DNA of 64,000 bases from Planctomycetales bacterium 71-10 (GTDB lineage Bacteria; Planctomycetota; Planctomycetia; Isosphaerales; Isosphaeraceae), in contig MKTT01000036.1 of the NCBI GenBank assembly GCA_001898385.1, positions 67,870 to 131,869 of the forward strand. The letters run 5' to 3'. Shown piece after piece: positions 7,565 to 58,013 of the stretch (position 1 is its first letter; each line of letters starts with the position of its first letter). A model generated the notes under the pieces. That model saw nothing but the letters and a program-made list of their open reading frames with translations. It did no database searches and was not told the DNA's origin. The translations under genes and the position numbers were made by a program.

Positions 7565-11278
<3,714 letters not shown>

Positions 11279-12816: not shown

Positions 12817-12865
12817 GTCCCCTCTCCCGCCGGGAGAGGGTAGCCGCGCAGCGGCGGGCGAGGGT
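12817..12865 (+). repeat. REP-like repeat A1 (CCCTCTCCC variant)
   Basis: Two adjacent hairpins: CCTCTCCCG/CGGGAGAGG, then CCGCGCAGCGG-type, ending in GGCGAGGGT. It is the outer left member of the nested block; its inverted partner is at 13246-13291. Confidence 0.75.
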
Positions 12866-12924
12866 CGCGGGGGCGCGGAGGGCATGACGGTCGCGTTGCA
12901 TCCTCGCCGACTTATGCCAAGCAG

Positions 12925-12955
12925 CCTTCTCCCTCAAGGGTGCTCCGTCGAAAAC
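12925..12955 (+). repeat. repeat C, forward copy
   Basis: About 30 bp ending in CGTCGAAAAC and preceded by CCCTCAAGGGTGCTC. The same motif occurs inverted at 13182-13212 and forward at 46306-46332, so it is a separate small dispersed family found next to repeat A. Confidence 0.6.
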
Positions 12956-12979
12956 ATGCCGGTGCGGGTCGAAGGCGGT

Positions 12980-13156
12980 CTTCCCCCCTCGCGGGGGAAG
13001 ACAGACCGCGAAGCGGTCAGATGAGGGGGACGCGAACCACGGGTGCCGTCGGGAGCCCAGGAGGCCCGTCTGACCGGCTCGGGATTCCGACGCCTTTCTC
13101 GCTCGTCGTCCCCCTCATCCGGCCCTTCGGGCCACCTTCCCCCGCGAGGGGGGAAG
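12980..13156 (+). repeat. composite repeat, 177 bp: A forward - centre - A reverse (copy 1)
   Basis: Repeat A2 (12980-13032) has the hairpins CTTCCCCC/GGGGGAAG and GACCGC/GCGGTC, then GATGAGGGGGACG. Repeat A3 (13107-13156) is an inverted variant with CCGGCCCTTCGGGCC as its inner hairpin. The 74-bp centre is homologous to the centres at 15438-15509 (inverted) and 43791-43869, so the whole 177-bp unit, not just its ends, has been copied around the genome. Confidence 0.75.
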
Positions 13157-13181
13157 GCCGTTCATCGCTCTCATCCCGAGT

Positions 13182-13212
13182 GTTTTCGACGCAGCACCTC
13201 AAGGGGAAAAGG
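13182..13212 (-). repeat. repeat C, inverted copy
   Basis: It begins GTTTTCGACG and continues AGCACCTCAAGGGG, the reverse complement of the family at 12925-12955. Together the two C copies bracket the composite A unit symmetrically at 25 bp on each side. Confidence 0.6.
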
Positions 13213-13245
13213 GGTCGATCGCCCCGGCCCTTCCGAGATCCGACG

Positions 13246-13291
13246 ACCCTCGCCCGGCCCTTCGGGCCACCCTCTCCCGGCGGGAGAGGGG
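13246..13291 (-). repeat. REP-like repeat A4 (CCCTCTCCC variant, inverted)
   Basis: It contains CCGGCCCTTCGGGCC followed by the CCTCTCCCG/CGGGAGAGG hairpin. It is the inverted partner of A1 and closes the nested block. Confidence 0.7.
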
Positions 13292-13338
13292 ACTTCGAAC
13301 GGCTCGCCCGACCGCCCTCCCGACGCCCCGAACATCCG

Positions 13339-15309
13339 TCACTTCGCCGCAGGCTTCCCCCCATCATTCGTCCGCGCCCCCCGCCGGAGCAAGGCCTGGA
13401 CGACGCCGCCGGCGCTGACGGGGGGGCGTCGGGACTTCATCAGGTCGGCGCGGGTGAAGGAGTCGCCGACGGGGAGGTCGACGTCGATGTAGCCGATCAT
13501 CATCTCCTCGAAGGTCTGGTCGCCCCAGCGGACGGTCTTCGTCGGGTCGGGGTTGGAGGGGTTGGCGGCCGAGTTGTCGTAGTGGGCCGTGCAGTCGATG
13601 ACGGTGCCGGCGGGGAGGGTCATCGGCTCCTTCAACGTGTAATAGCTCTGCCAGCCGAAGTCATACGCCGGCACGGAGAGGAGCGTCTCGGGCTCGCCGC
13701 CGGGCTTCGTCACGACGTACTTGAAGTCCTTGCCGCGGACGTGCATGTGGGGCATGAAGCTGAGGAGCCGGACCTCCTTCGGGAGCGTCATCGCGGCCGT
13801 CACCGGGACGTTCGGCTCGCCGGGGGGGATGATGAAGCCCCCCTCGGCGATCGGCAGCGTGAACGCCTCGCGCGTGACGGGGCCCTTGGCGAAGATCAGG
13901 CCCAGCTTCGAAAGATCCTGGTGCGGCCGGCCGTCGGGCGTGTAGTGCAGCTCGAAGATGAAGTCGGAGCCCGCCGGGACCTTCTTGGCCGTCCCCTCGG
14001 CGTAGCTCGAAGGCATGTCGCCCGGGGCGTAGCCGCACAGGTGCGAGCCCCCCAGGCCCAGCCGTCGCTGCTTGGTATGGTCGTCGACGTAGACGATGAT
14101 GTGGTGGACGATCGAGCGATCCCCCGGCATCGCCTCCGCGGCGCGGACCCAGACGTCCTCCTTGAAGTTCGAGGGGACCCGGACGCGGACGTAGTCCATC
14201 ACCCCCTGCGCGGGGATCGACTGGACCTCGGGGATCTCGAACACGACGTCGGGCTCGCCGATCGACCAGCCCTCGGGGAAGGTCTTCGCGGCCGGGAGGT
14301 CTTTCGGGTCGCCGAGTGGACTCCCCTGGTCGATCCAGGCGAGGAGCTTCGCGCGTTCCTCGGCGGAGAGGCTGCGGTCGTTGGCGAAGGCGCCGTGGCG
14401 GGGGTCGGCGTGCCAGGGGGGCATGCGGCGGTCGTCCACGACCTCGCGGATCATGGCCGAGTGCTTGCGCACCTCGTCGTAGCTCGTCAGCGAGAACGGC
14501 GCGACCTGGCCGGGCCGGTGGCACGACTGGCACTTCTCCTGGACGATCTTCGCGGCGGCCGACGCGAACGTCACCGGACCGACGTCCTCGGGCTTCGGCC
14601 CGTCGGCGTCGCGGAGGGCGCGGATCTCGTCGGAGGGGGTGCGGACGCGGGAGGCGGCGGGCTTCGCGGCCGGCTTCGGCGCGGCGCGCTCGATCAGGCA
14701 GCCGGCGACCTCCGTGGCCGGGACCTCGACCGCGCGGCGGGCGAGGACCGCGTCGATGGCCTCGCGGAGATGATGCCGCGACGGCTCCGGCTTGCGGGCG
14801 CCGACGGCGTACTGGTCGTCGATCGCGCCCCGGTAGCGGATCCTCGCCGCGCCGTCGAGGAGGACGACCTCGGGGGTCCGTTCGGCCATGAGCGCGTCGG
14901 CGACCACGTTGCCGGGGTCCTTCAGGACCGGGAAATCGAGGCCGAACTCCTTCGCCTTGGCTGCGAGTTCCTCGTCGGAGTCGCCTGAATTCGCGTCGAC
15001 GGCGAGGAAGACGATCCCCTTCGGGCCGTACTCGCGGCTCAGCTCGACCAGGCGGGGATAGTACAGGTCGCCCACGGGGCACTGAGTCCCTACGAAGACG
15101 ATCGCCGCCCCGGCCTTGCCGGCGAAGCCGTAGAGCCGGACGTCGGCCTTCGACGTCACGTCCTTTAGCGCGAAGTCCCGGACGCGCGAGCCGACCAGGC
15201 GGTCGACGGCCGGGGGGTTCGCGTCCTCGGCGGCCGAGACCCGGGGCGTCGCGAGGGCGGCGGCGATCGCGAGGAGGGCGGCCGTCCGGATCCGTGCGAG
15301 ACGAAGCAT
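13339..15309 (-). CDS. redoxin - cytochrome c - copper type II monooxygenase-like fusion, secreted
   Basis: This 656-residue exported protein has a signal peptide (residues 1-27, ending VSAAED). Residues 40-190 form a peroxiredoxin/thioredoxin-like domain with FVGTQCPVGD, a single cysteine. A one-haem cytochrome c-type site CQSCH lies near residue 261. The region after about 360 resembles the copper type II, ascorbate-dependent monooxygenase fold, with HHIIVYVDD near 401 and MPHMHVRGKDF near 521 as copper-ligand histidines. Such fusions are recurrent in planctomycetes (family knowledge); the substrate is unknown. The start at ATG 15309 is supported by GGAG 7-10 nt upstream. An alternative start 24 codons earlier lies near a repeat and is unlikely. 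Confidence 0.8.
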   Translation of the reverse strand: MLRLARIRTAALLAIAAALATPRVSAAEDANPPAVDRLVGSRVRDFALKDVTSKADVRLYGFAGKAGAAIVFVGTQCPVGDLYYPRLVELSREYGPKGIVFLAVDANSGDSDEELAAKAKEFGLDFPVLKDPGNVVADALMAERTPEVVLLDGAARIRYRGAIDDQYAVGARKPEPSRHHLREAIDAVLARRAVEVPATEVAGCLIERAAPKPAAKPAASRVRTPSDEIRALRDADGPKPEDVGPVTFASAAAKIVQEKCQSCHRPGQVAPFSLTSYDEVRKHSAMIREVVDDRRMPPWHADPRHGAFANDRSLSAEERAKLLAWIDQGSPLGDPKDLPAAKTFPEGWSIGEPDVVFEIPEVQSIPAQGVMDYVRVRVPSNFKEDVWVRAAEAMPGDRSIVHHIIVYVDDHTKQRRLGLGGSHLCGYAPGDMPSSYAEGTAKKVPAGSDFIFELHYTPDGRPHQDLSKLGLIFAKGPVTREAFTLPIAEGGFIIPPGEPNVPVTAAMTLPKEVRLLSFMPHMHVRGKDFKYVVTKPGGEPETLLSVPAYDFGWQSYYTLKEPMTLPAGTVIDCTAHYDNSAANPSNPDPTKTVRWGDQTFEEMMIGYIDVDLPVGDSFTRADLMKSRRPPVSAGGVVQALLRRGARTNDGGKPAAK

Positions 15310-15387
15310 CGACTTCTCCGTGATGGTGTTGCGGGGCGGGCCAGGATGATCGGAGGGCGTCGCTTCGAGGATCAGCATCATGACGTC

Positions 15388-15563
15388 CTTCCCCCCTCGC
15401 GGGGGAAGGTGGCCCGAAGGGCCGGATGAGGGGGACGACGAGCGCGAAAGCCGTCGGGATCCCGAGCCGGTCGGACGTGCCGTCGGATCCCGACGGCGCC
15501 CGCGCTCCGCGTCCCCCTCATCTGACGCCTTCGGCGTCTGTCTTCCCCCGCGAGGGGGGAAGA
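15388..15563 (-). repeat. composite repeat, 176 bp: A - centre - A inverted (copy 2)
   Basis: Left end 15388-15437 carries CTTCCCCC/GGGGGAAG and GGCCCGAAGGGCC; right end 15510-15563 carries GACGCCTTCGGCGTC and GGGGGAAGAC. The centre, read on the minus strand, matches the 13033-13106 centre; both encode the chance peptide MRGTTS-K-VGIPSRSD in opposite directions, a convenient sign of homology. Confidence 0.7.
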
Positions 15564-15612
15564 CTTCGGCGCGATCCCCCGAAACTGGAAGCCAACCTAG
15601 CCGGAAGCGACC

Positions 15613-15640
15613 TTGTACGAAATCGGAATTCTTCTATACC
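15613..15640 (+). promoter_or_regulatory. possible promoter of the ArnT-like operon
   Basis: TTGTAC (15613-15618) and TATACC (15635-15640) are 16 bp apart in an AT-richer patch, 75 bp before the gene start. The match is only moderate. Confidence 0.3.
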
Positions 15641-15715
15641 TGCGACGCGGTGCGCCCGGGTCATGGAACCTCCGGGCCGCGATTTCGGACCGCGAACCGA
15701 CGAGCCGGAGCCGGA

Positions 15716-43637: not shown

Positions 43638-43977
43638 GGCGCGATCCTCCTACCTTCATCCTATCCCCGAAACGCCCCGGAGGCGAGCGACGACCGTCGC
43701 CAGGGGGCCTCCGGAATTTGGGGGCGGTGCTCGACGTCTTCCCCCCTCGCGGGGGAAGACAGACCGCGAAGCGGTCAGATGAGGGGGACGCGAAGCACCG
43801 GCACCGTCGGAAGTTCGCAGGCCCGTCCGTCCGGGCCGACGCGAAATCCGACGGCCGCCTCGCTCTCTTCCCCCTCATCCGGCCCTCCGGGCCACCTTCC
43901 CCCGCCAGGGGGGAAGGCCGTTATGATGCCTCTTCGACTCCGACGCGATTCGTCAAGACCCAAAGGCCCACCCGCCG
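43638..43977. other. 340-bp intergenic region holding the third composite repeat
   Basis: No gene is seen. More than half of the stretch is the 179-bp A-centre-A unit at 43738-43916. Confidence 0.75.
43738..43916 (+). repeat. composite repeat, 179 bp: A forward - centre - A reverse (copy 3)
   Basis: The left end (43738-43790) is identical over most of its length to 12980-13032. The centre shares CGAA-CAC-GG, ACCGTCGG, AGGCCCGTC and CCGACG-CCTCGCTC with the 13033-13106 centre. The right end (43870-43916) is the inverted CCGGCCCTCCGGGCC form. Confidence 0.7.
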
Positions 43978-44880
43978 TCACCGCGCCGCGGCGAGCATCT
44001 CCCCGACGGTCCGCTCCAGGAGCGCCGTCCCGCCGAAGGTCATGCCGAGGGCGCGGATGCGGTCGGTGACGATCTCGTTCTTCGGCCGGCCGGCCTCGCC
44101 CTCGATCGCGCCGGCGGCCCCGGAGAGGCGGCGGGCGATGTGGGCGACCTCGAAGTCGGAGACGTAGCGGTCGCAGCCGTTGAACATCCGGCCCGACACC
44201 GCGTCGGCGTCGGCGCGCAGCAGGATCGCGACGCCCCGCGCGACGTCCTCGGCGTGGACGACCTTCGCCCCCTTGCGACACTCGACGGGACGGCCGGCGG
44301 CGACGTCGCGCACGAGGTCGGACCACTTGCTGTCCGCCGCCCGACGGGCCAGGCCGTAGACGCCGCACGGCCGCAGCGCGCAGGCGGCGAGCCGGCCCGA
44401 GAGCCCGTAATCGGCGACGAACGCCTCCACGGCCGCCTTGCCCGCGCCGTAGTGGCTGCGGCTCCAGGTCGGGTGGGCCTCGTCGAGCGGGCGGTCGGGC
44501 AGGATCTCGTCGTGGACCGCGCCCGAGGAGAGGAAGACGAACCGCCGGACGCCCGCCTCGCGGGCCCGTTCCATCAGCCGGATCGTCCCCAGGACGTTGC
44601 GGTCGACGAACTCCAGCACGTCCCCCTCGCCGCCGACGAACCCCTTGCCGGGGCGGTCGACGGCCGCGTGGACGACGGCGTCGGCGTCGCGGACCAGCTC
44701 GCGGGCCGAGCGGTCGTCGCCCAGGCCGCCGTCGATCCATTCGAGCGCGGCGCCCTCGGGGAAGCCGGAGGCATCGCTCGTCGGGCGTCGCCAGGCGACG
44801 ATCCGGTGTCCGGCCGCGAGCAGATTTGCGACGATATAGCGGCCGACGAACCCCGTCGCGCCGGTCACGGCGATCCTCAA
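43978..44880 (-). CDS. NAD(P)-dependent epimerase/dehydratase (extended SDR)
   Basis: This 300-residue enzyme starts with the Rossmann motif VTGATGFVGRY (residues 5-15) and has the catalytic serine in FLSSGAVHDE and the YxxxK pair in SHYGAGKAA. The C-terminal half would bind a nucleotide-sugar or other substrate. No sugar-biosynthesis genes adjoin it, so its substrate is unknown. Its start is 45 bp from the divergent SGNH-family gene. Confidence 0.88.
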   Translation of the reverse strand: MRIAVTGATGFVGRYIVANLLAAGHRIVAWRRPTSDASGFPEGAALEWIDGGLGDDRSARELVRDADAVVHAAVDRPGKGFVGGEGDVLEFVDRNVLGTIRLMERAREAGVRRFVFLSSGAVHDEILPDRPLDEAHPTWSRSHYGAGKAAVEAFVADYGLSGRLAACALRPCGVYGLARRAADSKWSDLVRDVAAGRPVECRKGAKVVHAEDVARGVAILLRADADAVSGRMFNGCDRYVSDFEVAHIARRLSGAAGAIEGEAGRPKNEIVTDRIRALGMTFGGTALLERTVGEMLAAAR

Positions 44881-46360: not shown

Positions 46361-46587
46361 CTTCTCCCCTTGAGGGAGAAGGTGGCCGCAGGCCGGATGA
46401 AGGGTCGACCGCCGTCGCATGTCGGGCCGGCCCTCCCGGTAGGCTGGGTCTCGACCCAGCCCGGAGGAGGCGTCGCGTATCCCGGGCTGGTTCGAGACCC
46501 AGCCTACGAGGCTTGAAGTCCGGGGCATCGGGTCGCGCCCCCCCTCATCCGCCCCTCCGGGGCACCTTCTCCCACGAGGGGAGAAGG
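46361..46587 (+). repeat. composite repeat, 227 bp: A - spacer - B - spacer - A inverted (copy 1)
   Basis: A (46361-46403) has CTTCTCCCC/GGGAGAAG-like arms and GGCCGCAGGCC; the right A (46541-46587) is inverted. Between them lies palindrome B. Both spacers are recognisably homologous to those at 54432-54463 and 54533-54560 (for example GCGACCGCC/TCGACCGCC then GGCCGGCCCTCCC, and GGTCGCGCCCCC), so the whole unit is one repeat. Confidence 0.72.
46439..46508. repeat. repeat B, 70-bp nested palindrome, copy 1
   Basis: Ends GTAGGCTGGGTCTCGACCCA and its inverse form a long inverted repeat, and each arm itself contains the palindrome CTGGGTCTCGACCCAG or a variant. The right arm here has one TTCGAGACC-type change. 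Confidence 0.7.
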
Positions 46588-54383: not shown

Positions 54384-54612
54384 CCTTCTCCCCTCGTGGG
54401 AGAAGGTGGCCGCAGGCCGGATGAGGGGGCGACCGCCTCCGCATCCCACGGCCGGCCCTCCCCGTAGGCTGGGTCGAGACCCAGCCCGGATGAGGCGTCG
54501 CGTTTCCCGGGCTGGGTCTCGACCCAGCCTACAAGGATTCGAATCCCCCGGCCGCCGGTCGCGCCCCCTTCATCCGGCCCTCCGGGCCACCTTCTCCCAC
54601 GAGGGGAGAAGG
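54384..54612 (+). repeat. composite repeat, 229 bp: A - spacer - B - spacer - A inverted (copy 2)
   Basis: It has the same order and almost the same spacing as 46361-46587. The left A is CTTCTCCCCTCGTGGGAGAA followed by GGTGGCCGCAGGCCGGATGA; the right A ends ACGAGGGGAGAAGG. Confidence 0.72.
54464..54532. repeat. repeat B, 69-bp nested palindrome, copy 2
   Basis: Arms GTAGGCTGGGTCGAGACCCA and TGGGTCTCGACCCAGCCTAC flank a short GATGAGGCGTCGCGTTT centre that is shared with copy 1. Confidence 0.72.
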
Positions 54613-57817: not shown

Positions 57818-57851
57818 CGCCCCGCCGCAGCACCGATTTCGGATCCCCTTC

Positions 57852-57919
57852 GTAGGCTGGGTCGAGACCCAGCCCAAGCGGGCCTCGGCTCCTCGGGGCT
57901 GGGTCTCGACCCAGCCTAC
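57852..57919. repeat. repeat B, 68-bp nested palindrome, solo copy 3
   Basis: GTAGGCTGGGTCGAGACCCA and TGGGTCTCGACCCAGCCTAC flank a different 28-bp centre. Here it stands without A repeats, between the P-II and HAD genes, and could act as a transcription end. Confidence 0.7.
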
Positions 57920-58013
57920 GGGAACACGCCGAGAGCCCGGCGCGACGAAACCCCAGCCTTCCGCGACCGACCGACCCCGACGCCCTCCTTTGCAGCCCCG
58001 GTGACGAAGCCCC

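Follow-up and report, generated by a model that had tools for sequence, protein, structure and literature searches.

Three similar hairpin-bearing units in a stretch of 64,000 nucleotides (the window, G000:C36:67870-131869) of Planctomycetales bacterium 71-10 raise the question of how a hairpin repeat for which no dedicated enzyme is known can spread, and our analysis offers one concrete answer. The host belongs to the genus Paludisphaera (Planctomycetota), and its genome, labelled G000, comprises 7.73 Mb in 158 contigs. A preliminary description of the window had proposed three copies of a 177-bp unit with an inverted repeat (repeat A) at both ends and a common centre. All three are present, at 175-179 bp, with end hairpins and centres that are homologous far beyond chance; the positions given for the two plus-strand units, 12980-13156 and 43738-43916, are exact, and the inverted unit that begins at 15388 ends at 15562 rather than 15563. 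Repeat A is a 21-bp end hairpin, CTTCCCCCCTCGCGGGGGAAG, found without change at five unit ends and with one mismatch at the sixth. Homology also extends through the centre, the 12980 unit matching the inverted 15388 unit over two arms, of 99 nt (94%) and 80 nt (89%). The proposed lack of coding capacity is consistent with core lengths (169-182 bp) that differ by non-multiples of three and with the palindromic nature of the copies, this being the ORF check made.

We read this core of 177-179 bp (the C unit) as a head-to-head REP dimer, that is, two inverted hairpin arms with a conserved self-complementary centre between them. The arm hairpin consists of CTTCCCCC, a 5-nt loop and GGGGGAAG, and inward of it lies a second hairpin (left GACCGCGAAGCGGTC, right GGCCCGNAGGGCC) followed by GATGAGGGGGA. 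In the 179-bp copy at 43738..43916 (+), delimited by homology search and fold, sequence reading places the left outer hairpin CTTCCCCC-CTCGC-GGGGGAAG at 43738..43758 (+) and its inverted copy, the right outer hairpin, at 43896..43916 (-); copy comparison places the left second hairpin, GACCGC-GAA-GCGGTC, at 43762..43776 (+) and the right one, GGCCC-TCC-GGGCC, at 43881..43893 (+). The arms are flanked by the tags ACGTC or ACGGC at the right end and ACGT or ACGGT at the left end, and GTGG stands before the second hairpin in the right arm only. Because the centre is self-complementary, the whole 179 bp is predicted to fold as a single long hairpin (-127 kcal/mol, z -9.9). No Rfam family reached its gathering threshold anywhere in the window.

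The core copies are intergenic and present in high number. In a blastn-type search of the same genome, the best 40 of 410 first-look candidates were full-length matches, 86-94% identical to the query (lowest E 1e-72), the query itself aside, and an inner-core pattern had 205 exact matches with both strands counted, against 0 in the reversed control; palindromic sites may match on both strands, so that these correspond to about 110-205 sites. In sampled stretches of the genome we read 80 distinct full copies with a mean pairwise identity of 0.85, a set biased by the many regions that were fetched because they bear copies, and the hairpin pairs sampled from families C and D were head-to-head in 29 cases out of 29. 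The genome total is at least 80 distinct full copies, and probably 100-200 or more. A further REP-dimer family in the window (CTTCTCCCCTCGTGGGAGAAG, tag CATC) is related to the C unit yet distinct from it, and its copies, of 226-227 bp, lie at 46361-46586 and 54385-54611 and have central GGCTGGGTCGAGACCCAGCC palindromes; GTAGGCTGGGTCGAGACCCAGCC palindromes occur outside this family as well, at 57851-57922.

The preliminary description took the 177-bp unit as the moving unit, and on this point it has to be corrected, the mobile form in 48 of the 80 copies read measuring about 273 bp and the unit having no target-site duplication (TSD) of its own. Direct repeats bordering the 177-bp unit were as frequent as in the null for k = 3-9. 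The flanks of the core are themselves repeated in many copies and carry the actual transposon ends: the terminal inverted repeat (TIR) GGGTGTGCCTTTGGAATTTGGCGG lies on both sides in 48 of the 80 copies read, and the 8-bp direct repeats immediately outside it are perfect in 21 of these 48 and match at 7 or more of the 8 positions in 38, against 0.5% and 6%, respectively, when the flanks of different copies are paired as a null. With TIRs on both flanks, 8-bp TSDs outside them and none at the 177-bp ends, the outer borders of most copies lie beyond the 177 bp, and the core is the interior of a MITE in those 48 copies. The length of this element is narrowly distributed (246-284 bp, median 273). 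A genome scan for GGGTGTGCCTTTGGAATTTGGCGG with up to 3 mismatches found 71 sites, against 0 in the reversed control, and among the inspectable TIR matches there was no MITE without the core, barring the insertion sequence (IS) described below, a remnant of an IS and a single collapsed copy. All testable features of a MITE were thus found, namely TIRs, TSDs, no coding capacity and an autonomous element whose ends match. A search that relies only on the conserved hairpins of a palindromic repeat can therefore overlook where the mobile unit truly ends.

Of the 80 copies read, 32 lack clear MITE ends on both sides, among them two of the three window copies. The 8-bp direct repeats around these 32 copies (15/32, against 36% in the null) are uninformative as a set, and single copies of an 'outer3' type show a convincing-looking direct repeat (CTTTTTCC). 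At locus L184 (about 9930-10090), a chimeric copy combines one GGGTGTGCC-type end with a second end similar to a different outer repeat and has only one, collapsed hairpin. In the window, the C unit at 12980..13156 (+, 177 bp) is by its nesting the innermost of three palindromes. Flank comparison delimits around it an 'outer2' palindrome at 12925..13212 (+), with CCTTCTCCCTCAAGGGTGCTCCGTCGAAAACA at both ends, and around this lies the outermost palindrome A (GGGAGAGGG...GGCGAGGGTC...) at 12817..13293 (+), which stands alone, without the inner elements, in the orthologous gap of the congener G005. Each of these palindromes was apparently inserted midway into the one before. Such nesting, and the occurrence of cores within several different outer palindromes, could be taken to mean that recombination among GC-rich hairpins made the pattern without any transposition. 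This is possible for copies such as that at 12980; for the MITE class it is contradicted by the mirrored placement of exact TSDs (21/48 against 0.5%), and the narrow range of element length also argues against it, so that as a general account we find it scarcely credible.

The copy at 43738 is the one in the window that lies within recognizable MITE ends. The element extends over about 43703..43973 (+), with the left end GGGGGCCTCCGGAATTTGG and the right end (reverse complement) GGGTGGGCCTTTGGGTCTTG at 7 and 5 mismatches, respectively, from the 22-nt TIR. Its TSD is imperfect: the left copy, CCGTCGCC, at 43694..43701 (+) matches 7 of 8 positions of the right copy, CCGTCACC, which was placed by TSD comparison at 43975..43982 (+). 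The right copy spans the stop codon of an epimerase gene (43978-44880, -), and the insertion thus left that gene intact. The second C unit (15388..15562, -, 175 bp) lies between divergent genes at 13339-15381 (-) and from 15613 onward (+), and its outer MITE ends are degraded or absent. It is at most a candidate for the MITE class: similarity to a MITE flank is weak and on one side only, where the score ranked high against the shuffled null, the other flank did not stand out, and no TSD was found; its flanks would at best be decayed MITE flanks. A promoter-like block (TTGTGCGAAATCGGAATTCCCTATACATGC in the relatives) upstream of the gene at 15613, at about 15590-15650, is conserved in each of the six Paludisphaera genomes, and the relatives carry it where the genome analysed here has the 15388 copy beside it.

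None of the five congeners has the unit at any of the three window sites, and absence from relatives, which the preliminary description had put forward as a check on mobility, is borne out between species; these relatives are distinct species with about 63-74% protein identity, and the comparison accordingly concerns presence or absence between species rather than strain polymorphism. Around the 12980 and 15388 sites, all five congeners retain the gene order, and the 43738 site is less clean, the neighbour on one side differing in the relatives. These observations bear on another reading, in which the repeat is a regulatory or structural hairpin of the host (a terminator, an mRNA 3'-end stabiliser or a nucleoid site) maintained by selection, with mobility secondary. 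The very stable fold would suit such a role, as would the compensatory changes that give the left second hairpin three versions, all fully paired (roughly 42, 21 and 14 copies), the conservation of the arms across five species whose centres differ, and several copies in G004 (P. soli JC670) that, as judged by eye, lie just after apparent stop codons. However, paired changes can also arise by hairpin-templated repair, so they leave an RNA function unproven, the sites are not common to the congeners, and the TSDs together with a matching IS indicate transposition. We therefore consider selection for a host hairpin a very unlikely primary explanation.

The matching IS is a 1.41-kb element at G000:C87:52402-53811, bracketed by MITE-type ends (19/24 and 21/24 matches) and by a perfect 8-bp TSD, CCGCGGCC. 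Its product matches the NCBIfam model ISKra4 (NF033572) with an E value of 1.8e-56 and 192 bits, relative to a curated cut-off of 205 and with the first ORF left out of the query. Where its two ORFs overlap there is a CCCAAAA -1 slippery run, a layout that suggests a -1 frameshift. It is the only full ISKra4 element in this genome, and 3-5 of the 24 positions of its TIR differ from the MITE consensus; the active transposase partner may have been lost, or may be a close relative. P. soli encodes an 84%-identical transposase in an IS with the TIR GGGTGTGCCTTCGGAAGTTGG and a perfect TSD, GGTCGGAA, and the TIR matches in that genome are the two ends of this IS only. By genome, TIR matches numbered 78 here, 3 in G005, 2 in G004 (both from the IS) and 0 in G001-G003, a distribution that points to a species-level MITE burst. 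At least one site in G005 has such a MITE end beside a core, and one MITE there surrounds a partly different interior.

We therefore propose, with considerable confidence, that a REP dimer was captured by ISKra4 ends and that the resulting MITE of about 273 bp was copied in trans by an ISKra4 transposase. The TIRs, the TSDs, the matching ISKra4 element and the window sites that are free of the unit in the congeners all point in this direction. Under this model, a REP dimer would have come to lie between the ends of an ISKra4-family IS in this species, the transposase would cut at the GGGTGTGCC ends and leave 8-bp target duplications, and the MITE would be copied around the genome in trans. An ISKra4 transposase probably did the moving, and the core was presumably captured by the IS ends and did not arise with the MITE. 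With a CGTC-like REP dimer inside a MITE, a named IS family, clean target duplications and an apparently intact partner, the mover becomes testable within one genus.

The preliminary description had suggested a non-autonomous mobile element of REPIN or MITE type and a search for a transposase whose flanks match repeat A. The MITE half of this suggestion is upheld for 48 of the 80 copies by the TIRs, TSDs and matching IS, and the REPIN half is not, if a REPIN is strictly one moved by a RAYT; similarly, the TSDs sought are absent at the 177-bp ends and present at the outer MITE ends (perfect in 21/48), and the transposase found is flanked by the outer repeat (ISKra4), not by repeat A. A classical REPIN would be moved as a unit of 177 bp, in the form of single-stranded DNA, by a RAYT (a Y1 tyrosine transposase). 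The head-to-head hairpin dimers, conserved centre, intergenic position and high copy number would accord with such a system; the genome analysed here contains RAYT-type genes (G000:C74, C11), and the GTGG that precedes a hairpin in the right arm has been reported as a tag variant of some GTAG REPs (PMC3733652). In six genomes searched with profiles, the 1.5 kb on either side of each fetched Y1_Tnp/REP-transposase locus nevertheless contained no REP from family A, C or D, and G002 (100% complete, 5 contigs) has no match to PF01797 or NF047646, yet carries many core copies. We accordingly rejected a RAYT as the evident mover; the 8-bp TSDs around the majority class are moreover of DDE type, and we regard the REPIN reading as very unlikely.

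Beyond this species, the core is carried by G001, G002, G004 and G005, with near-identical arms and species-specific centre lengths. Few of these copies lie in a longer inverted repeat (2/16 in G001, 1/16 in G002, 5/24 in G004 and 2/19 in G005) and their flanks are mostly unique, which suggests that the core disperses also by some route beyond the ISKra4 model; the core also appears to be older than the MITE. In G002, three C units (L106, L110 and L114) have their outer hairpin broken by a common foreign end of 40-50 nt (...AGTAGTTGCGAAAATACCTCCCCTTGTAAG), a pattern that an insertion sequence targeting the REP hairpin might leave. A broader and more speculative possibility is that REP dimers lacking a transposase of their own spread by capture between ordinary IS ends, a different one in each lineage, that the long palindromes around REP dimers elsewhere (CGTC-1 of H. 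neapolitanus, GTAG-15 of A. variabilis) are IS ends too, and that the core has a separate, non-RAYT dispersal in Paludisphaera.

Like REPINs (Bertels and Rainey 2011, PMC3116915), the C unit consists of two inverted REPs around a spacer that form a long hairpin, but it differs in having no RAYT association and, in the majority class, DDE-type TSDs. By structure it is closest to the dimers of CGTC-tagged REPs, which are widespread, head-to-head, and without a reported RAYT or dedicated transposase, some of them lying inside longer palindromes (PMC3733652, Di Nocera et al. 2013); no CGTC family is reported from Planctomycetes in the results of that study. The C unit shares with them the 8-bp stem and 5-nt loop (8-9 bp and 4-5 nt in CGTC REPs), conserved self-complementary spacers, high copy number and head-to-head predominance, and its outside tag, ACG(T/G)C, may correspond to theirs (PMC3733652). 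However, its stem starts with CT instead of the near-invariable AT and its tail is GTGG or ACAGA instead of CCA (PMC3733652), and because of these two sequence features we do not file it as a member; in addition, its arms each carry a second hairpin, and its outer palindrome proves to be an IS end with a TSD. The MITE shares its ends and 8-bp TSD with the ISKra4 family (NF033572), full elements of which occur in this genome and in P. soli, and unlike them it has no transposase; in a limited literature search, the passages that name ISKra4 described no ISKra4 MITE. It resembles IS-derived bacterial MITEs in being short and non-coding, with TIRs of about 24 bp, 8-bp TSDs, high copy number and an autonomous IS with matching ends. 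In contrast to those elements, its interior is not a deleted IS but a REP dimer, which other species carry independently of the MITE.
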